A stretch of 52,427 nucleotides of DNA, from the NCBI GenBank assembly GCA_944392965.1, contig CALXYM010000015.1, positions 1 to 52,427 of the forward strand, in the 5' to 3' direction. The position numbers and the translations under genes were made by a program. The stretch's first letter is position 1. Each line of letters begins with the position of its first letter. Of the stretch, positions 17,259-29,837 are shown one piece after another. The DNA is from an uncultured Spirochaetaceae bacterium. Lineage in GTDB: Bacteria; Spirochaetota; Spirochaetia; Sphaerochaetales; Sphaerochaetaceae. The notes below the pieces were generated by a model that was not told the origin of the DNA, did no database searches, and saw only the letters and a program-made list of their open reading frames with translations.

Positions 17259-19829
17259 ATGAGAAAACAAAAGAGACCGATTGCCATAATTTTATTAGCT
17301 CTGTTTGTTATGCTGTTTACATCATGCGCTCCAGAAGTAACAACATACACCGTTACCTTTATGAACGAAGGGAATGTTTATCATACTGCTACTGTTATCG
17401 CAGGACAGACTGTAGGGGAAATCACCGCTCCTCAAGCAGAGGAGGGAAAAGAGTTTTCATTCTGGTCAGCTGATGGAAATACTCAATTTAATTTCAGTTC
17501 TCCAATAAATTCAAATATTACGTTATATGCAGTTTGGGAGAATTTAACATACGAGATTACTTTTTATGTTAATGATGAAGTTTATGAATCTGTATCAGTG
17601 ATTTCTGAAGATCAGGTTACACAGCCAGATAACCCAGAACCTATAGAGGAAGGAAAAGTTTTCTGGTATTGGAGTTGCGAAGGTGAGGAATATGATTTTT
17701 CAACACCTGTAACAGCAGATTTAAGTTTATATGCTATGTTTGCAGATAGCACACATAATGTAACATTTGTGAATGGAAGTTGGACATCATCTCCTCAAAT
17801 TGTGGAACATGATACTCCTGTAGAAAAACCAGAAGATCCGACAAGTTCTGATGTAAAAATAAGGTTTTATCATTGGAGTTTAACTGAAAATGGAGAAGAG
17901 GCTTATGATTTCTCATCTCCTATTACATCTGACATTACTCTTTTCGCCGTATGGGGAGAAAATAGGCATAATGTGACTTTTGTAAATGGTGGATGGAACT
18001 CTATTGTATCAGTTCTGAATACTGAAACCGTTTCACCTATATCTGATCCAGAACCAATTGAAGAAGGGGATGTTTTCTCTCATTGGAGCAGTACGGAATA
18101 TGGAGAGGCATTTGATTTCGCAACACCAATAACAGAGGATATGACCCTATATGCCGTATGGAAACCTGTCGTAACTTATGTCAATGGAACAGAAATTACA
18201 AAAGTTACTTATGAATATGGGGCTACATTAACTCAACCTGAAAATCCAACAACCGTTCCAGAAGGGAAGAGAACCTTTTCACATTGGAGTGAGGAGGATG
18301 GTGGATTAACAGAATATGAATTTAATAGCGTTGTTTTAACAAAAGATAAGACCCTATATGCCGTATGGACGGATTACCAAGTACGAATTGTAAATTTAGA
18401 TGAAACCATAAGTGCATATGATGTGATTTCAGGAACTACAATTGCAAAACCAGAAACTCCCGATGGACAGGGAAGAGAGTTCTTATACTGGGGAACTACA
18501 AACTGGGGGAATGAATATGATTTCACAACTCCTGTAAATAGTGATATTACCCTTTATGCGGTTTACAACAATCATAAGGTTACTCTTATAAACGGTTCAA
18601 CAGAAACTATTTATCCCTGTTATGTTGGAGAAGCATTACAAAAGCCAGACGATCCAGAAGCTGTAGAAGATTGGCAAGGTGACTTTTTCTTTTGGAGTGA
18701 AGCAGATAGAAACCAAGGTGAAACGGAATTATTTGGCACTGTCATAGATAAAGATATTGTTTTATATGCCATCTGGATGCCAAAAGGAATTACTTATTCA
18801 ACTAACTATGAAAACAAACTTCAGATAACAGATTATGATAATAGCTATGAGGAAATCGTAATCCCTTATGGTGTTGAAGTAATTGGAAATAATGCGTTCT
18901 ACTATTGTGATAAATTAAAAATTATTTTCCTACCTGATAGTATAGCGAACATAGAAAATTCCGCTTTTAGAGATTGTAGTTCATTGGAAAACATAGATAT
19001 TCCAAAGGGTGTGACTAGTATTGGAAATAGTACTTTTTGGGGTTGTCGTGCATTGAAGAGCATAGATATCCCAGATGGTGTGACGAGTATAGGCAATTAT
19101 TCTTTTAGAGGCTGTAGTTCATTGATAAGCATAGATATCCCAGAGGGGGTAACGAGTATTGGAGATTCTGCTTTTGAGTCATGTTCTTCTTTAACAAGTA
19201 TAAAGATACCAGACGGGGTAACGACCATAGGGAGTTATGTTTTTTTCTGTTGTAATTCTTTAGAGAGTATAGATATTCCAGAAAGTGTGATGAGTATTGG
19301 GGATTATGCCTTTTATAACACAGGGTTACAAAATATAGAAATACCAGAGGGCGTGACAAGTATTGGGGCGTATGCTTTTTATTCTTGTTTTTCGTTGGAA
19401 AACATAAAAATACCAAATAGCGTTACGACTATAGGGAGTCATGCTTTTTCTGACTGTAGTTTATTGGAAAGCATAGATATCCCAGATGGAGTGACGACTA
19501 TAGGAGGTGATACTTTTTCTGGCTGTAGTTTATTGGAAAGCGTAAATATACCAGAAGGAGTAACAATTATTGCAAGCGGTATGTTTAGATACTGTAGAGC
19601 ATTGAATGATATACACATCCCAGAAGGTGTGACGAGTATAGGGTTTTCTGCTTTTTTCGGTTGTCGTTCATTAACAAGTATAGAAATTCCTGAAAGTGTG
19701 GAAAACATAGATAGCACTGCTTTCTCAGAGTGCCCTTCCCTCTCCACAATAACCATAGACAACACAGAAAATGCAATTTTGGGTTCTCCTTGGGGTGCTA
19801 CAAATGCTACTGTTATCTGGTCAAGATAA
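17259..19829 (+). CDS. Surface lipoprotein with B-repeats and BspA-type leucine-rich repeats
   Basis: 856 residues. A lipoprotein signal peptide ends in LFTSC with the lipidated Cys at 23. Residues ~28-505 hold seven Listeria-Bacteroides type repeats of about 65-70 residues, each ending like TLYAVW (the last few vary: TLYAVY, VLYAIW) and with a central FSHWS/FWYWS. From ~525 to the end are about 13 BspA-type 23-residue repeats of the form IPEGVTSIGDSAFESCSSL. Such proteins are anchored outside the cell and bind host or microbial surfaces. It follows the small coiled-coil gene by seven bases and is probably co-transcribed with it. Confidence 0.92.
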   Translation: MRKQKRPIAIILLALFVMLFTSCAPEVTTYTVTFMNEGNVYHTATVIAGQTVGEITAPQAEEGKEFSFWSADGNTQFNFSSPINSNITLYAVWENLTYEITFYVNDEVYESVSVISEDQVTQPDNPEPIEEGKVFWYWSCEGEEYDFSTPVTADLSLYAMFADSTHNVTFVNGSWTSSPQIVEHDTPVEKPEDPTSSDVKIRFYHWSLTENGEEAYDFSSPITSDITLFAVWGENRHNVTFVNGGWNSIVSVLNTETVSPISDPEPIEEGDVFSHWSSTEYGEAFDFATPITEDMTLYAVWKPVVTYVNGTEITKVTYEYGATLTQPENPTTVPEGKRTFSHWSEEDGGLTEYEFNSVVLTKDKTLYAVWTDYQVRIVNLDETISAYDVISGTTIAKPETPDGQGREFLYWGTTNWGNEYDFTTPVNSDITLYAVYNNHKVTLINGSTETIYPCYVGEALQKPDDPEAVEDWQGDFFFWSEADRNQGETELFGTVIDKDIVLYAIWMPKGITYSTNYENKLQITDYDNSYEEIVIPYGVEVIGNNAFYYCDKLKIIFLPDSIANIENSAFRDCSSLENIDIPKGVTSIGNSTFWGCRALKSIDIPDGVTSIGNYSFRGCSSLISIDIPEGVTSIGDSAFESCSSLTSIKIPDGVTTIGSYVFFCCNSLESIDIPESVMSIGDYAFYNTGLQNIEIPEGVTSIGAYAFYSCFSLENIKIPNSVTTIGSHAFSDCSLLESIDIPDGVTTIGGDTFSGCSLLESVNIPEGVTIIASGMFRYCRALNDIHIPEGVTSIGFSAFFGCRSLTSIEIPESVENIDSTAFSECPSLSTITIDNTENAILGSPWGATNATVIWSR

Positions 19830-22120: not shown

Positions 22121-22858
22121 TCAGCTGACTGCGGCATATAACTCCTTATAGCTATTTTTAGGATTCGGTTCGATTACTATGAATGTGCCGTCCATGCATT
22201 TCTTATAATCTTCTCTGAACTCTTTTGAAAACTCCTCTATATAAGGGGCGATGACGCTCTTCTTCTCTTCATCATCAATTTTTCGCATTAGAAGTTTTTC
22301 CGAGAGACCCACGGGTTTTTCATCTGTCCGCAGATAAATGCGTCCTGAGTACATTCCATTGCCACAGAAAAATCCTGTGATAGGCTCTTTTTCTCTGTTA
22401 AGACCGAGAACGATTATCGTACCGCCTGCAAGATACTCTCCCAAGAAGGAGCCTGCGGTTCCTCCGATGACTATCACGGGCTGGATATCCCCATAGGCTT
22501 TCATATGCACCCCCGCACGGTAGCCGGCGTTGCCGTGGATGAATATCTTTCCTCCCCTCATCGCATAGCCAAGGGCATCTCCGGCAGAGCCGTCTATGTA
22601 CATCTTCCCGTTGTTCATCGTGTCTGCAACTGCATCCTGGGCATTCCCTTTTACCCTTATCGTTCCTCCATCAAGGTAAGCTCCAAGCGCGTTTCCAGGT
22701 GTGCCCGTAAGGGTAAGATTCACATTCTTCATACCGCATCCGATGTATCTCTGGCCCATGCAGCTTTTTAATGTAAGAGGTTCTCCATCAGCCTCTCTTA
22801 TCAGGGCGGCGATATCCTCCTGCCTCATGTTCTTCACGTCTACTTCTAGCATTCTCAT
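22121..22858 (-). CDS. Glutamate synthase, GXGXG (GltB C-terminal) subunit
   Basis: 245 residues from the ATG at 22858, which overlaps the upstream stop by four bases (ATGA); a longer in-frame extension to 22999 lies inside the neighbour and is rejected. It is a right-handed beta-helix of repeated G-x-x-x-G units: TGTPGNALGAYLDGG, VKGNAQDAVADTMNNG, IDGSAGDALGYAMRGG, IHGNAGYRAGVHM, GGTAGSFLGEYLAGG. This matches the structural third domain of GltB encoded as a separate protein. It packs against the synthase domain and helps line the ammonia tunnel. Confidence 0.92.
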   Translation of the reverse strand: MRMLEVDVKNMRQEDIAALIREADGEPLTLKSCMGQRYIGCGMKNVNLTLTGTPGNALGAYLDGGTIRVKGNAQDAVADTMNNGKMYIDGSAGDALGYAMRGGKIFIHGNAGYRAGVHMKAYGDIQPVIVIGGTAGSFLGEYLAGGTIIVLGLNREKEPITGFFCGNGMYSGRIYLRTDEKPVGLSEKLLMRKIDDEEKKSVIAPYIEEFSKEFREDYKKCMDGTFIVIEPNPKNSYKELYAAVS

Positions 22859-24363
22859 TCTCCCGCATACCTTATTCCGAGAACCTGTAATTCCTTCTCG
22901 TTCAGATCGACACCACGGAGGGCAAGGCGGTTTCCTCTCAATGCCTCGATTGAGTTTATGCCCATGCCTCCCATGATCTCCTGTATCTCCCGTGTCCATG
23001 CGTGTACGAGGTTCACAAGGCGCTCTGCTCCCTTCTCTGGATCAAGACGCTTCGTAAGCTCCTCTTCCTGCGTCGCTATGCCCCACGAGCATTTTCCCGT
23101 ATGACAGCTTGCGCAGAGGTGGCATCCTAGCGCTATTAGAGCCGCCGTACCTATTGAGACGGCGTCCGCACCGAGTGCGATCGCTTTTGCCACATCCGCG
23201 GAGTTATGTATTCCCCCGCTTGCGATTATTGAGACACGGTCCCTTATATGCTCTTCCCTGAGTCTCTGATCGACAGAAGCGAGAGCGACTTCTATTGGGA
23301 TGCCGACGTTATCCCTTATACGCACGGGGCTTGCGCCTGTTCCTCCTCTGAAGCCGTCGATCGAGATGATGTCAGCTCCGCTTCTTGCTATTCCACTTGC
23401 AATCGGTGCTATGTTATGTACTGCTGCGACTTTTACTATCACGGGTTTAAGGTAGCCTGTTGCCTCCTTTATGGAGGATACGAGCTGTCTGAGATCCTCT
23501 ATTGAGTATATGTCGTGATGAGGAGCTGGACTGATGGCATCCATTCCTGATGGAACCATTCTTGTACGCGATACGTCCCCGATGATCTTGGCTCCAGTAA
23601 GGTGCCCTCCAATTCCAGGCTTTGCACCCTGTCCGATCTTTATCTCAACCGCAGCTCCTGCAGAAAGATATCTGCTATGCACGCCGAATCTTCCGGATGC
23701 GACCTGCACGATCGTGTTATCCCCATACTTATAGAGATCCTCATGCAGTCCTCCTTCTCCCGTGTTCCAGTATGTTCCAAGTTCCTTTGCCGCCATCGCA
23801 AGCGCCTTATGTACATTCAGGCTTATCGCACCATAGCTCATTGCTGAAAAGAGAATAGGGGTATCGAGTTCAAGGTGTGGAGGCAGGTTGTCTTTTATTC
23901 TTCCTCTCTCATCCCTCTCAATTCTCTCTGGCCTGCTTCCTATGAATACCTTCGTCTCCATGGGTTCTCTCAGCGGATCTATCGAGGGGTTTGTCACTTG
24001 ACTTGCATTAAGAAGGATCCTGTCAAAATAACGGGGTATGGATTTCACGGGGCTTCCCATGCTCGATAGAAGTACGCCACCGCTTTCGCTCTGGCGGTAT
24101 ATCTCCTTTAAGCTGTCACAGCTCCACTCGGCATTTGGACGGAACGTGTTCTTATTCAGTACGATAGAAAGTGCTCCCGTTGGGCAGTAGGAGACACAGC
24201 GCTGGCAGTCTACGCATTTCGTGCTGTCCGCTTTGAGCGTTTTCTTCTCTTCATCATAGCTGTGTACACCATAGGAGCATTCACGTACGCATATGCGACA
24301 GGAGACGCACGCTTCATTATCCCGTATTACTTTGAATCTTGAAGGAATCAGGTTGCATCTCAT
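22855..24363 (-). CDS. Glutamate synthase, ferredoxin-FMN synthase subunit
   Basis: 502 residues. The N-terminus has two 4Fe-4S ferredoxin motifs (Cys19, 22, 25, 29 and Cys50, 53, 56, 60). The FMN-binding TIM barrel follows: LFSAMSYGAISLNVHKALA, NTGEGGLHEDL, QGAKPGIGGHL, DGFRGGTGASPV and SGGIHNSADVAKAIALGADAV. A third cysteine cluster, CHLCASCHTGKC, matches the 3Fe-4S site of glutamate synthases. It makes glutamate from 2-oxoglutarate and tunnelled ammonia. No NADPH-binding GltD is encoded nearby, so electrons may come from ferredoxin. Confidence 0.94.
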   Translation of the reverse strand: MRCNLIPSRFKVIRDNEACVSCRICVRECSYGVHSYDEEKKTLKADSTKCVDCQRCVSYCPTGALSIVLNKNTFRPNAEWSCDSLKEIYRQSESGGVLLSSMGSPVKSIPRYFDRILLNASQVTNPSIDPLREPMETKVFIGSRPERIERDERGRIKDNLPPHLELDTPILFSAMSYGAISLNVHKALAMAAKELGTYWNTGEGGLHEDLYKYGDNTIVQVASGRFGVHSRYLSAGAAVEIKIGQGAKPGIGGHLTGAKIIGDVSRTRMVPSGMDAISPAPHHDIYSIEDLRQLVSSIKEATGYLKPVIVKVAAVHNIAPIASGIARSGADIISIDGFRGGTGASPVRIRDNVGIPIEVALASVDQRLREEHIRDRVSIIASGGIHNSADVAKAIALGADAVSIGTAALIALGCHLCASCHTGKCSWGIATQEEELTKRLDPEKGAERLVNLVHAWTREIQEIMGGMGINSIEALRGNRLALRGVDLNEKELQVLGIRYAGE

Positions 24364-25454
24364 CTTCTCACCTCCTTATCCAGCGTCACGATCACAGGCT
24401 CTCCACCCCGGGGAGCCCATATCCTGTCAAGTTCTGGTTCTATTACCCTTATCGCGGCCTCCTCTGATGCAAAATACACCTTTCTTCCTTTCTCTGCTGC
24501 GACAAGGCTTCTGAGCTTTAGTCTGTCATTGAGAGCCATCATGCCTCCATTGAATCCGACGAGGATTGAGAAAGGCCCTGTTATGAGGAAGGAAGGAAAC
24601 ATCTTTCTCAGGTACGAGAGCCTCTCTTTCTCGTCATCATCCTTCAGTTCTATCGTGCTCCAGAAAGGGGAGGCGATAACATTAGCACACTCTTTCAAAC
24701 TTAAATGCTGTTTTCTTTTCAGATAGTCTAGTATGTATGTTATTACCTCTGTATCCGTAAGGAGATTGCATGAGTAACCGTACATCTCCACGGCCCTCCT
24801 GTTGGCATCGTATGATGATATCTCCCCGTTATGCACTACCGATAGGTCAAGCAGTGCGAAAGGGTGTGCACCTCCCCACCATCCCGGGGTGTTCGTCGGA
24901 TATCTTCCGTGTGCAGTCCACGCATAACCGTCATATTCCTCAAGGCGGTAAAAGTCCGCAACATCCTCAGGATAGCCCACGGCCTTGAACACTCCCATGT
25001 CTTTTCCACAGGAGAACACGAAACTGCCACCGATCGTGTTGTTTATCCTTATCATGCACCGTGCCGTGTATTCATCCTCATCAAGATGGCTGTCTGAAAG
25101 ACGATGGGGCAGAGGTGTGACGAAATACCTCCAGATCAGTGGAGCATCCTTTATTCTTGGATTCGGGCGTGTCGGAATTTTTGAGAGGTTTATGATGTCA
25201 AAGTGTCTGTCAAGAAACCTCTCCGTCTCCTCCCTTGACTGTAGATTGTCGTAAAACACATGGATGGCATAGTGATCCTTATACTGGGGATAGATCCCGT
25301 AACCTGCGAATCCACCTCCAAGTCCGTTCGAGCGCTCATGCATCACGGAAATGGATTTTGCTATCACAGATCCGTTTACAAGGCTTCTGTCCCTGCTGAA
25401 TATCCCGCTTATGGCACACCCTGAGGGTATTCTCACTTCTCCTTCTCGTGGCAT
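24360..25454 (-). CDS. Glutamate synthase, class II glutamine amidotransferase subunit
   Basis: 364 residues from ATG 25454, which has GGGAGG upstream; the in-frame TTG at 25478 lies in the terminator T tract and is rejected. It hydrolyses glutamine to feed ammonia to the synthase subunit. The catalytic Cys is in IPSGCAISGIF, a little inside the N-terminus, so either processing exposes it or the family acts differently. HERSNGLGGGFAGYGIYP, AWTAHGRYPTNTPGWWGGAHPF and VVHNGEISSYDANR are the glutamine-binding and oxyanion motifs. It is the first gene of the three-piece synthase operon. Confidence 0.92.
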   Translation of the reverse strand: MPREGEVRIPSGCAISGIFSRDRSLVNGSVIAKSISVMHERSNGLGGGFAGYGIYPQYKDHYAIHVFYDNLQSREETERFLDRHFDIINLSKIPTRPNPRIKDAPLIWRYFVTPLPHRLSDSHLDEDEYTARCMIRINNTIGGSFVFSCGKDMGVFKAVGYPEDVADFYRLEEYDGYAWTAHGRYPTNTPGWWGGAHPFALLDLSVVHNGEISSYDANRRAVEMYGYSCNLLTDTEVITYILDYLKRKQHLSLKECANVIASPFWSTIELKDDDEKERLSYLRKMFPSFLITGPFSILVGFNGGMMALNDRLKLRSLVAAEKGRKVYFASEEAAIRVIEPELDRIWAPRGGEPVIVTLDKEVRR

Positions 25455-25476: not shown

Positions 25477-25532
25477 AAAAAAATTAAGGCGTACTCAGAA
25501 TACTCCCGTATTCCAAGAACGCCTTTGTCCTT
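25477..25532 (-). promoter_or_regulatory. ANTAR-type antiterminator hairpin and terminator in the glutamate synthase leader
   Basis: Reading leftward, AAGGAC (25532-25527), hexaloop AAAGGC (25526-25521) and GTTCTT (25520-25515) form a 6-bp hairpin with A at loop position 1 and G at 4, the ANTAR consensus. It overlaps the 5' arm of an intrinsic terminator: AAGGCGT (25525-25519) pairs with ACGCCTT (25492-25486), GGAATAC with GTATTCT, then seven T (25483-25477). The two folds exclude each other. The gene starts only 23 bases beyond, so the terminator is an attenuator. Confidence 0.75.
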
Positions 25533-25545
25533 AACTTAGACTAGG

Positions 25546-25574
25546 ATTACAAAATAAAAAGGGAAAACTGTCAA
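25546..25574 (-). promoter_or_regulatory. Promoter of the glutamate synthase operon
   Basis: On the minus strand TTGACA (25574-25569), 17 bases and TGTAAT (25551-25546). The predicted start near 25540 is only about eight bases before the hexaloop hairpin, leaving no room for a second upstream hairpin. Confidence 0.75.
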
Positions 25575-25703
25575 TAGTCTGTCATTCTATTACGGTTTTT
25601 TTATTATTGTTGTTGTAATTTGTTGCATCAGTATATCTTAGTCCCTGAAAAACTGAGAAAAATAAAATTTTTGAAAAAAGATTCTTTTTGTTCATTTTTT
25701 GTA

Positions 25704-25732
25704 TTGACGAATTTATTCTAACCTTGCATAAT
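25704..25732 (+). promoter_or_regulatory. Promoter of the glutamine synthetase operon
   Basis: TTGACG (25704-25709), 17 bases, CATAAT (25727-25732). The predicted transcript starts near 25738-25740, about ten bases before the hexaloop hairpin. Confidence 0.75.
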
Positions 25733-25748
25733 CCCTTGCATAGAAAAA

Positions 25749-25795
25749 CAGCAACGGCGCTGCGGATTATGGATCAATAGTCTGCGGCGCTTTTT
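25749..25795 (+). promoter_or_regulatory. ANTAR-type antiterminator hairpin and terminator in the glnA leader
   Basis: CAGC (25749-25752), hexaloop AACGGC (25753-25758) and GCTG (25759-25762) form a short hairpin with A1 and G4 in the loop. Its 3' half is shared with an intrinsic terminator: a 14-bp stem from 25757-25770 and 25777-25790 with a GGATCA loop, followed by TTTTT. Forming the small hairpin blocks the terminator. The loop and its closing C-G pair (CAACGGCG) match the glutamate synthase leader (CAAAGGCG) at seven of eight bases. The gene begins at 25815. Confidence 0.78.
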
Positions 25796-25814
25796 CTATA
25801 AATAGGGAGGACGT

Positions 25815-27128
25815 ATGGAACAAACACTGGCGGAGATAAAAGCGCTGATGGAGGAGTATGAGATAAAGTTCATCCGTCTGGCGTTCTGTGACATATTCGG
25901 TTTGCAGAAGAACATCGCGATAATGTCCAGCCAGCTGGAGCACGCCGTAATGCACGGGGTCTCCTTCGATGCTTCCGCGATTGACGGATTCTCAAACGTA
26001 TCCGAGTCCGACCTCTTTCTTCATCCTGACCTTAATACATTTTCAATACTTCCATGGAGGCCTCAGGAGGGAGGGGTCGCAAGATTCTATTGCAACATCT
26101 CCTATCCTGATGGACGTCCATTTGAAGGGGATGGCAGGTATATTCTAAGAGAATGTGAGAAAAGAGCGAGAATGGCAGGTTATTCATTTCTCGTCGGTCC
26201 TGAGTGTGAGTTCTATCTTTTTGAGACTGATGATAACGGCTATCCGACTCGTAAACCGTTTGACAAAGCCGGTTATTTCGATATCGCACCCTTGGACAGG
26301 GGAGAGAACATCAGGAGGGAGATATGCCTTACGATTGAGGAGATGGGACTCTCCCCTGAGAGAAGCCACCATGAGTCCGGGCCGGGGCAGAATGAGATCG
26401 ATTTCCGCTGTTCAAGCCCCCTTAAAGCCGCCGATGATCTGATGACACTCCGTACGGCCGTGAAAGCCATAAGCTATCAGAATGGATTATTCGCCTCATT
26501 TTTGCCAAAGCCCCTGGTAGGGGAAAGTGGCAGTGGACTGCATATAAACCTCTCGGTATTTGAAAATGAGGAGAACCTTTTTGATGGCTTCTCATCCTGT
26601 AAAAATCCCAAAGCCTCATCCTTCCTTGCTGGAATACTGCGCAGGATCGCGGAGATAACCGCGTTTGCAGATCCTCTCCCTGGCTCCTATTCGAGGCTTG
26701 GCAAATGTGAGGCTCCAAGCATGATCTCCTGGAGTGCGGAGAACAGGTCGACCCTCATAAGAGTTCCTGCCGCAAGCGGAGATGATTCAAGGATTGAGAT
26801 AAGAAGTCCCGATCCGTCCTGCAATCCATACCTTGTAATAGCCCTTCTGATCTCTGCTGGATTTGAGGGAATCAAAGATTCTTTAGAGCTTCCTCCTAGC
26901 ACGGATAAGGATATATTCTCTCCGGGAGGAAGAGCAGGCCTTAAGGAGATTCCGCAGAGCCTGCAGAAGGCTGTGAAGATTGCAAAAGCAAGTGAGTTTG
27001 TCCGTTCTGTCCTTCCAGCCCGTCTTGTGGATGATTACCTTACCCTGAAAGCGAGGGAGGCACAGGGATATGAGAGGAGTGAGAACGCCTACTCATATGA
27101 ACTTGAACGTTATTTCCCATATATATAG
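25815..27128 (+). CDS. glnA: Glutamine synthetase, type I
   Basis: 437 residues, GSI-alpha size. It makes glutamine from glutamate, ammonia and ATP. Active-site blocks: FLVGPECEFYLFE, SHHESGPGQNEIDF, PKPLVGESGSGLHINLSVF, SYSRLGKCEAPSMISW and SRIEIRSPDPSCNPYL. The region that carries the adenylylation Tyr in GSI-beta enzymes reads LELPPSTDKDIF, without that Tyr, so control by adenylylation is unlikely. First gene of an operon with the ANTAR regulator and a second glutamine synthetase; GGGAGGACGT precedes the ATG. Confidence 0.95.
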   Translation: MEQTLAEIKALMEEYEIKFIRLAFCDIFGLQKNIAIMSSQLEHAVMHGVSFDASAIDGFSNVSESDLFLHPDLNTFSILPWRPQEGGVARFYCNISYPDGRPFEGDGRYILRECEKRARMAGYSFLVGPECEFYLFETDDNGYPTRKPFDKAGYFDIAPLDRGENIRREICLTIEEMGLSPERSHHESGPGQNEIDFRCSSPLKAADDLMTLRTAVKAISYQNGLFASFLPKPLVGESGSGLHINLSVFENEENLFDGFSSCKNPKASSFLAGILRRIAEITAFADPLPGSYSRLGKCEAPSMISWSAENRSTLIRVPAASGDDSRIEIRSPDPSCNPYLVIALLISAGFEGIKDSLELPPSTDKDIFSPGGRAGLKEIPQSLQKAVKIAKASEFVRSVLPARLVDDYLTLKAREAQGYERSENAYSYELERYFPYI

Positions 27129-27168: not shown

Positions 27169-27732
27169 ATGGATACCGCATTGATCGTGACAGCTTCCGA
27201 GTCCTATGTTGAGATGAAGAGGCTTTTAAGCATGAATGCCGTGGTATCTGACAATGTAAGAAGTCTCAGGGAGGCACGCATGGCACTTTGTGATGTGCCT
27301 TATTCCCTCCTTCTGATCGATAATCCCCTTCCTGACGGATCGGCCAGGGAGTTTGCGATAGAAAGTTCCCGCAGAGACGGTTTGGATATCATCCTCCTTA
27401 CAAGTCCTGCCGTCGCGGAACGAGTCTCCATCGGTCTTGAGAGATACGGTGTATACGTGCTCTCAAAGCCGATAAGGGAGAATGAGCTTGCCATAATCCT
27501 GAGAAATATGAGGATTGGCAGGAAGAGGCGAGAGGAGCTCGAGGCGAAATGCAGACGGCTTTTGAAACGTCTGGAAGAGGAGAGGACACTTACGAGGGCA
27601 AAATGCCTTCTTGCCCTGAAAGAGGGCATTGGAGAGGATGAGGGCCACAGGGTACTAGAGAAGAAGGCGATGAACGAGAGGATAACACTTCTTGACGCCG
27701 CTAGCGAGATAATTCTGAAATATAGCAAGTGA
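27169..27732 (+). CDS. ANTAR-domain RNA-binding regulator (GlnR/EutV type)
   Basis: 187 residues: a receiver-like domain (1-~105), a coiled coil (~115-140) and an ANTAR domain (~143-184, [19 protein letters not shown] then [20 protein letters not shown]). The receiver keeps an Asp51 in [10 protein letters not shown] and Lys100 in VYVLSKPI, but the usual acidic pair after the first strand is replaced by Thr8-Ala9, so ordinary magnesium-dependent phosphorylation is doubtful. ANTAR proteins bind hexaloop RNA hairpins and prevent termination. Such sites occur in both leaders beside this gene, making it the likely regulator of the whole locus. A GlnR-type ANTAR protein beside glnA is known in some clostridia. 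Confidence 0.9.
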
Positions 27733-27764
27733 ATTGTTTGCTTTTTGATATAGGAGAAGAGAGT

Positions 27765-29837
27765 ATGAAAGAGATTCCTGAACTGTTTGGCAGTATGGTT
27801 TTCAATGATCATGTGATGAGACAGATGCTTCCCAAGACCGTATATAAGTCTCTGAAGCGTACGATGCAGGAGGGAACAGCGCTTGAGGCGGATGTCGCGG
27901 ACGTTGTTGCTGCCTGTATGAAGGACTGGGCTGTAAGCAAGGGGGCAACCCATTTCACGCACTGGTTCCAGCCCATGACGGGAATCACCGCAGAAAAGCA
28001 TGATTCTTTCATTAGTCCGGACGGAAACGGGAACGTGTTGATGGATTTCTCGGGAAAGGAGCTTGTAAAGGGAGAACCGGATGCATCCTCATTCCCTTCC
28101 GGTGGTCTGAGAGCGACGTTTGAAGCACGCGGCTATACCGCCTGGGATCCTACGAGTTATGCCTTTATCAAGGATGACACGCTCTTTATTCCTACCGCAT
28201 TCTGCTCCTATACCGGACAGATTCTTGATAAGAAGACTCCGCTACTCAGAAGCATGGATGCCGTAAGCGTTGAAGCAGTGAGGACACTTAAGCTTTTCGG
28301 AAAGGACGTAAAGCGCGTTACAGCTACAGTTGGTCCTGAGCAGGAGTATTTCCTCATTGATGTGAAGGATTATGCGAAACGTCCTGACATCAAGCTGACG
28401 GGAAGGACACTCTTTGGAGCTCCATCTCCGAAAGGACAGGAGAAGGAGGATCACTATTTTGGAACAATAAGGCCACGTGTGAAGGCGTTCATGGCCGATC
28501 TTGACCAGGAGCTCTGGAAACTTGGTATTCCTTCAAAAACAGAGCATAATGAGGTCGCTCCATGCCAGCATGAGATGGCTCCGGTCTTTGAGACTGCGAA
28601 TATTGCCACTGATGCAAACCAGCTTACGATGGAGGTCATGAAACAGGTTGCAGAGCGACATGGTTTCGCATGCCTTCTTCATGAGAAGCCGTTCGAGGGT
28701 ATCAACGGATCTGGAAAACACAACAACTGGTCGCTCTCTACCGATACTGGAGAGAATCTTCTTGATCCGGGTAAAACCCCTAGTGAGAATGCCCAGTTCA
28801 TTCTCTTTCTAACTGCGATAATAAAGGCTGTCGATGATAACCAGGATCTTCTGCGCCTCTCTGTAGCCTCAGCAGGAAATGATCACCGTCTGGGGGCTAA
28901 CGAGGCACCTCCTGCAATTCTCTCGATATTCGTCGGAGATGAGCTTGAGGAGGTCATCAATTCGATAATCGAAGGACGTATGGCAAAGAGCGGGAGCCGT
29001 AACAAGATCGATCTTGGAATGGTTCTTCCGAAGCTTCCTCAGGATAACAGCGATCGCAACAGGACGAGTCCGTTTGCTTTTACAGGTAACAAGTTCGAGT
29101 TCCGTATGCTCGGTTCCTCGTTCAATATCGCATGTACGAACACCATACTGAATACCGCGGTTGCCGAGAGCCTCAGGGTATTCAATGAGGAGCTTTATTC
29201 TGCAAAAGATTTCTCCTCAGCTCTCCATGACCTTATTAAGAGAGAGCTTACCGAACATAAGAGGATACTCTTCAATGGAAACGGCTATAGCAGAGAGTGG
29301 GAAGAGGAAGCGGAGAAAAGAGGCCTCCTCAACTATAAGAAAACCCCCGATGCGCTTGTGCATTATACTGACGAGAAGAACATCGAGCTTTTCAAGAGGC
29401 ACGGAATTTATACTGCTGAGGAACTTAAGAGCAGGGAGGAGGTGCTTATCGATGAATATCAGAAGCAGATCCGGATCGAGGCATTGACGATGCTCGAAAT
29501 GCTTAAAAAGGACATCATCCCAGCATGTATCTCATATTCTGATAAACTTGCAAAAGGGGTTGCCGTCAAGAAGAGCATAGGAATCGAGGCCGAGGCAGAG
29601 ATGAAGCTCTGCAAGGAGATTACAGGAAACATCGCATCGCTTTTAGATAAGACAGAGACTCTTGAAGGTGATGTTGGAACCACACCGGAGGATGTATACA
29701 AGGCGGCCAGATTCTCAGCGGATGTGATCATTCCTGATATGGAGAAGGCTAGGGCAGTTGCTGACCATCTTGAGACGATGGTTGGAAAGAAGGAATGGCC
29801 TATGCCCACCTATGCGGACATCCTTTTCTATTGCTAG
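27765..29837 (+). CDS. Glutamine synthetase, type III
   Basis: 690 residues from ATG 27765 ([15 protein letters not shown]), with AGGAGA upstream; a GTG at 27729 overlaps the regulator gene and is rejected. GSIII signatures: [68 protein letters not shown] and [14 protein letters not shown]. It catalyses the same reaction as GSI with a distinct, double-ring dodecamer. Having GSI and GSIII in one operon with an ANTAR gene between them is unusual. Confidence 0.95.

Follow-up and report, generated by a model that had tools for sequence, protein, structure and literature searches.

The window analysed here, a stretch of 52,427 nt from an uncultured Spirochaetaceae bacterium, contains a glutamate synthase (glt) operon and a glutamine synthetase (glnA) operon that diverge from one intergenic region, with an ANTAR protein encoded in the second. 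The question raised by this locus is whether the two leaders attenuate transcription under the control of that protein and, if so, whether they belong to the family of dual-hairpin RNAs from which ANTAR targets have been described.

The two leaders of the divergent nitrogen operons

Each leader could be seen directly in the sequence to carry a promoter, a hexaloop hairpin and an overlapping intrinsic terminator, as an earlier note on this DNA had stated (Table 1). Both hexaloops have A at position 1, G at position 4 and a C-G closing pair, and the loops reported previously, AAAGGC for glt and AACGGC for glnA, were verified at their positions. In both leaders the 5' arm of the terminator begins within the hexaloop hairpin, so that the two structures draw on common bases and the folds are mutually exclusive, again in agreement with the earlier description. 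The terminator folds (-28.7 kcal/mol, z -7.6, for glnA and -26.1 kcal/mol, z -5.2, for glt, against dinucleotide shuffles) are stronger than the hexaloop hairpins alone (approximately -4.8 and -5.9 kcal/mol, respectively). A sigma-70 consensus scan was weak when used alone, and overlooked the minus-strand glt promoter because its -10 element is TGTAAT. The glnA start at 25815 is preceded by a Shine-Dalgarno site, and the start of the first glt gene is most likely the ATG at 25454, with the Shine-Dalgarno site GAGGGGAGGG, rather than the TTG at 25478.

The reported ANTAR protein of the glnA operon was recovered with PF03861 (curated cut-off 27.3 bits), its receiver domain falling under the Pfam cut-off, and a genome-wide search returned no second ANTAR protein in the source genome. 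Elsewhere in the window, positions 17259-19829 encode a large secreted protein in which repeated Listeria-Bacteroides-type and leucine-rich surface repeats were recognized by eye.

Table 1. Genes and leader features of the divergent glt and glnA operons, with coordinates in the window; R1 is a covariance model of the leader element that was run on the own genome, its relatives and the phylum
Feature	Coordinates	Strand	Evidence
First glt gene, class-II glutamine amidotransferase domain of split glutamate synthase	24363..25454	-	Pfam GATase families; same-place orthologues in relatives
Glutamate synthase FMN/FeS core gene	22858..24363	-	PF01645, 463 bits
Glutamate synthase GXGXG-domain gene	22124..22850 (approximate start)	-	PF01493, 105 bits
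glnA, type I-like glutamine synthetase (GSI)	25815..27128	+	PF00120/PF03951; TIGR00653, 384 bits
ANTAR regulator, degenerate receiver and C-terminal ANTAR domain	27169..27732	+	PF03861, 45.5 bits; nearest solved relative AmiR
GSIII (glnN-type) glutamine synthetase, gene 3 of the glnA operon	27729..29837	+	PF12437, PF18318
glt promoter: TTGACA (25574-25569), 17 nt, TGTAAT (25551-25546)	25546..25574	-	Sequence
glt-leader hexaloop hairpin GGAC-AAAGGC-GTTC (antiterminator fold), loop 25526-25521	25517..25530	-	R1 match, 38.2 bits
glt-leader intrinsic terminator: stem-loop 25525-25486, then AATTTTTTT (T7)	25477..25525	-	Folding; covariation
glnA promoter: TTGACG, 17 nt, CATAAT	25704..25732	+	Sequence; position kept in relatives
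glnA-leader hexaloop hairpin CAGC-AACGGC-GCTG (antiterminator fold), loop 25753-25758	25749..25762	+	R1 match, 43.4 bits; stem covariation
glnA-leader intrinsic terminator: stem-loop 25756-25791 and T-rich tail TTTTTC	25756..25797	+	15-bp stem; folding; covariation

Conservation and covariation in related loci

Among the 139 genomes of the family, 85 carried an orthologue of the ANTAR protein (the Pfam model gave 87), and its surroundings in most of the orthologue-bearing genomes were fetched and annotated with the window proteins. Two gene orders were common, one with glt divergent from GSI-ANTAR-GSIII and the other with GSIII divergent from glt...GSI-ANTAR, and the hexaloop-terminator element heads transcription units in both. 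Whatever the gene order, the element starts the glt, GSI and GSIII units in up to 80 related loci, and the ANTAR gene is found in the same cluster as the leaders in nearly all of them; the nine loci without the element were mostly short or cut near GSI. A set of four Bacteroidota loci that also matched the query was set aside, as these are not close relatives and match mostly in the receiver part.

After removal of duplicates, 127 elements, the window's two included, shared the loop AA[ACGT]G[GA][CT], a consensus in which A1, G4 and the C-G closing pair had been imposed by the search and position 2 had been left free. A test of the loop free of the A1/G4 condition was provided by counting all 16 classes defined by loop positions 1 and 4: of 203 regions upstream of genes, 84 had an A..G.. 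hexaloop overlapping a terminator, against 0-5 for each of the other 15 classes. In an alignment of 40 sequences picked for carrying the element, a choice that favours pairing counts and affects covariation measures less, double changes were counted in 39 cells of the antiterminator stem and 102 cells of the terminator stem, the shuffled controls giving 14 and 32, respectively. Both signals were abolished when the partner was slid by 1-3 columns. Columns 3-6 of the 5' stem lie outside the terminator, and their covariation therefore supports the alternative, hexaloop fold itself. The earlier note had made its proposal depend on whether close relatives keep A1/G4 and the overlap between hairpin and terminator, and the conservation, the loop-class count and the covariation bear this out decisively.

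These data also bear on whether the structures are ordinary constitutive terminators with a chance resemblance to the ANTAR motif, a reading that could appeal to the frequency of GC-rich stems with GGC in terminators. Conservation and covariation, both present in relatives, refute this reading and leave it practically no probability: the disparity between A..G.. and all other loop classes, the covariation of 5' stem columns outside the terminator, and the recurrence of the element in the own genome only before nitrogen or glutamine genes (see below) all argue against it. Instead, it is very probable, judging from the leaders and their counterparts in relatives, that both leaders act as transcription attenuators and that their reader is the ANTAR protein of the glnA operon, with default termination relieved by capture of the hexaloop. 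By default, polymerase would make the first 40-60 nt, the terminator would fold, and the glt or glnA-antar-glnN transcript would end early. Active ANTAR protein, most likely under nitrogen or glutamine limitation, would capture the one A1/G4 hexaloop, which lies at the extreme 5' end of the growing transcript, withholding bases from the terminator and allowing readthrough. The putative antitermination step is suggested by anatomy and covariation, and binding by the ANTAR protein, the direction of regulation and the signal are proposed by analogy with NitR and EutV. As the regulator gene sits in the glnA operon, the glnA leader would form a positive loop.

Single hexaloops and the position of the promoter

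The positions of the promoters in the related leaders constrain how much RNA can precede the hairpin. Of the 127 leaders, 95 have a TTGAC box placed 34-52 nt ahead of the loop, where 1.8 would be expected, and none has one in the neighbouring slot; among leaders of relatives the end of the -10 element mostly lies 11-22 nt before the loop. Transcription starts approximately 7 nt downstream of a -10 element, so at the start sites predicted from these consensus promoters only 0-11 nt would precede the stem; a P1 hairpin and its linker require at least approximately 17 nt. Leaders of the third target and of Treponemataceae have the loop within 22 nt in 48 of the 50 with a good promoter. Further hexaloops upstream, with a stem of at least 3 bp, were found in 5, 3 and 2 leaders against 4.6, 2.4 and 4.2 expected, i.e. 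at chance level, the exception being the glt leaders, of which 5 in 53 had a stem of at least 4 bp when no C-G closing pair was required (1.7 expected). Downstream, inside the terminator, there was some excess of non-CG-closed hexaloops in glt leaders, which was interpreted as a side effect of the terminator stem.

The ANTAR targets in the literature have two hairpins, P1 and P2 (PMC3369931, PMC8164766), and for EutV both hexaloops are needed in vivo, although a single dimer binds a single hexaloop, which is the minimal binding unit (PMC8934654). It could therefore be argued that the leaders are canonical dual-hexaloop attenuators in which a divergent P1 was missed upstream and the true start lies further upstream than predicted. 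Besides this uniform precedent, the distant phylum member G174 has what looks like a canonical dual hexaloop (AGAGAT followed by AATGAG) overlying a terminator upstream of an Amt-like gene (L227:6140-6235); the detection of this pair indicates that the search method is able to see one. The TTGAC spacing, the few nucleotides left between the -10 element and the hairpin, and the chance-level frequency of upstream hexaloops, apart from the small glt group, make the dual-hexaloop reading quite improbable. The window leaders, with their predicted start sites, thus appear to hold a single hexaloop and to have no P1 of the kind that marks described ANTAR-target RNAs, and would be best regarded as a variant of the dual-hexaloop family and not as members of it. 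In this respect the earlier statement that known ANTAR systems work this way conceals the chief difference, the targets of EutV, NasR and AmiR being dual-hairpin and these leaders single.

As in the eut leaders of Enterococcus faecalis read by EutV/EutW (PMC3369931, PMC8934654), the leaders have an A1/G4 hexaloop whose 3' side is the terminator 5' arm. However, in the eut targets two hexaloops are separated by a linker of 5-12 nt, where the leaders here have one at the 5' end, and the amiE leader controlled by AmiR is likewise described as dual-hairpin. Published searches demanded two hairpins, and a single-hexaloop class would consequently have escaped them. In the expectation of Walshe et al. 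(PMC8934654), sites with one hexaloop would occur chiefly in settings free of the time limit that a moving polymerase imposes; here, the single hexaloops sit in transcription attenuators themselves, and comparison with the eut leaders bears on what P1 is for.

The ANTAR protein and its probable wider regulon

The nearest solved relatives of the window protein are AmiR (1qo0_D, E 2.3e-6), Rv1626 and EutV. In equivalences read by hand from one alignment with solved relatives, EutV K149, E160 and M172 correspond to K145, E156 and M168, each kept in 98 of 99 relatives, 97 of 99 have K or R at the EutV K143-equivalent position, and 95 of 99 share with AmiR a His at the Y164-equivalent position. The protein therefore resembles EutV as a receiver-ANTAR protein with conserved RNA-contact positions, and resembles AmiR of the Pseudomonas aeruginosa AmiR/AmiC system, its nearest solved relative by sequence, in this His and in its degenerate receiver. 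Across the 99 relatives the receiver Asp site is D in 44, N in 44 and E in 6, and the acidic pair is absent; the window protein retains D51, without the acidic pair. Because the Asp site is often Asn and the acidic pair is missing, phosphorylation is unlikely as a general signal, and the receiver lacks the combination of Asp and acidic pair that characterizes two-component, kinase-activated ANTAR regulators such as EutV, which is activated at its Asp. Unlike AmiR, which is silenced by the amide sensor AmiC, the protein has no AmiC-like gene beside it in the glnA operon.

The degeneracy of the receiver suggests a partner protein or ligand over a kinase, and AmiR is itself partner-controlled. 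A tentative and on balance rather doubtful sub-hypothesis is that GSI is the sensor, with glutamine-bound GSI keeping the ANTAR protein inactive in the manner of GS-TnrA in Bacillus, and the ANTAR gene does directly follow GSI in almost all family loci and in most sampled Treponemataceae loci. However, genomes G076 (99% complete) and G025 have the ANTAR protein and R1 leaders with no GSI at E 1e-30, which rules out GSI as an obligatory sensor, and the ANTAR gene adjoins amt-glnK in G477 and pyrG in G287. GSIII or P-II could be the sensor.

The regulon appears to extend beyond the two operons to which the earlier note had limited it. Of the eight places at which R1 matches the own genome, the five highest-scoring lie before glnA and glt (scores in Table 1), amt (C21:19058, 31.3 bits), asnB (C29:1769(-), 28.2 bits) and pyrG (C29:2026(+), 21.5 bits), the last two leaders being divergent; C4:54544, C14:13856 and C4:138764 (16-19 bits) were dismissed, having no proper hexaloop before a nitrogen gene. 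By these matches the predicted regulon holds at least five leaders, and the same ANTAR protein would probably read those of amt, asnB and pyrG too, giving a glutamine/ammonium regulon. The amt, asnB and pyrG targets recur in relatives, and in Treponemataceae such leaders stand upstream of GSIII, amt, asnB-like, glt-like and GSI genes, frequently with 2-3 attenuators in series. Across 393 phylum genomes, with kinship ignored, 68 had both an ANTAR and an R1 match, 8 ANTAR only, 22 R1 only and 295 neither; outside the own family, again with kinship ignored, the corresponding counts were 44, 8, 21 and 284. The mismatched genomes (22 of 90 R1-positive genomes without an ANTAR match and 8 of 76 ANTAR-positive genomes without an R1 match) are likely due to incompleteness and filter losses.

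Those R1 matches in genomes without a detected ANTAR gene would be expected if the attenuators were read by a different factor, such as another RNA-binding protein, a glutamine-type riboswitch or a small RNA. This is very improbable, as an Rfam scan of the window gave no family at gathering score, a C-G-closed loop with A1 and G4 is the one documented for ANTAR proteins, and the presence of the element tracks ANTAR genes, down to the shared clusters described above. With the ANTAR protein retained as the reader, we consider it reasonably likely that Spirochaetes have a widespread ammonium/glutamine ANTAR regulon in which one first-transcribed hexaloop suffices and P1 is dispensable, and in which a metabolic partner or ligand, not phosphorylation, switches the regulator.

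The earlier note had regarded a nitrogen regulon of this type in a spirochaete as new. ANTAR control of GS/GOGAT as such is already known: in the account cited in PMC6316151, antitermination by NitR of Clostridium saccharobutylicum (glnA-nitR-gltAB; Stutz et al. 2007) is credited with GS/GOGAT induction under nitrogen limitation, and for Desulfotomaculum and Pelobacter, ANTAR targets have been predicted upstream of genes for glutamate synthase, glutamine synthetase and ammonium transporters (PMC3369931). In the NitR system, as here, the ANTAR gene lies inside the GS/GOGAT cluster, but the present locus differs in its spirochaete host, in combining GSI, GSIII and a split glutamate synthase, and in a regulon that reaches amt, asnB and pyrG, a comparison made at the level of organisms and genes. 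The Desulfotomaculum and Pelobacter predictions concern the same classes of nitrogen genes, but came from a dual-hairpin model, and the main text of that study names no spirochaete. The part of the novelty claim that stands is the distribution across spirochaetes, which, like the extension of the regulon and most of all the leaders with one hexaloop, was not found in the literature searched (supplements and subscription papers being outside its scope). No description of nitrogen sensing in these spirochaete groups was found in that literature either, and the ANTAR protein with its targets is a candidate master nitrogen regulator for them.

Several further observations were made among the R1 matches. 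Two to three complete hexaloop-terminator units stand in tandem before amt or GSIII in L166, L169, L170, L194, L207, L213, L218, L050, L054 and L087, a possible arrangement for multi-step control. Matches of 40-43 bits at L156:5032-5078(-), L157:4719-4764, L159:4821-4865(-) and L161:5258-5301(-) are followed by genes that by eye encode an M20-type peptidase or an ABC substrate-binding-protein-like product (the L157 protein has no Pfam match), which are possible further regulon members with no obvious nitrogen tie. The amt gene behind the own-genome leader (G000:C21 from approximately 19200, L154:3204-4933) changes frame near residue 40, contains stops at residues 61 and 326, and is either a pseudogene or affected by assembly errors; intact copies, approximately 90% identical, are present in the relatives L158 and L162. 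Amt proteins behind leaders (L162:4078-5853) have a fused C-terminal P-II domain (PF00909 and PF00543).
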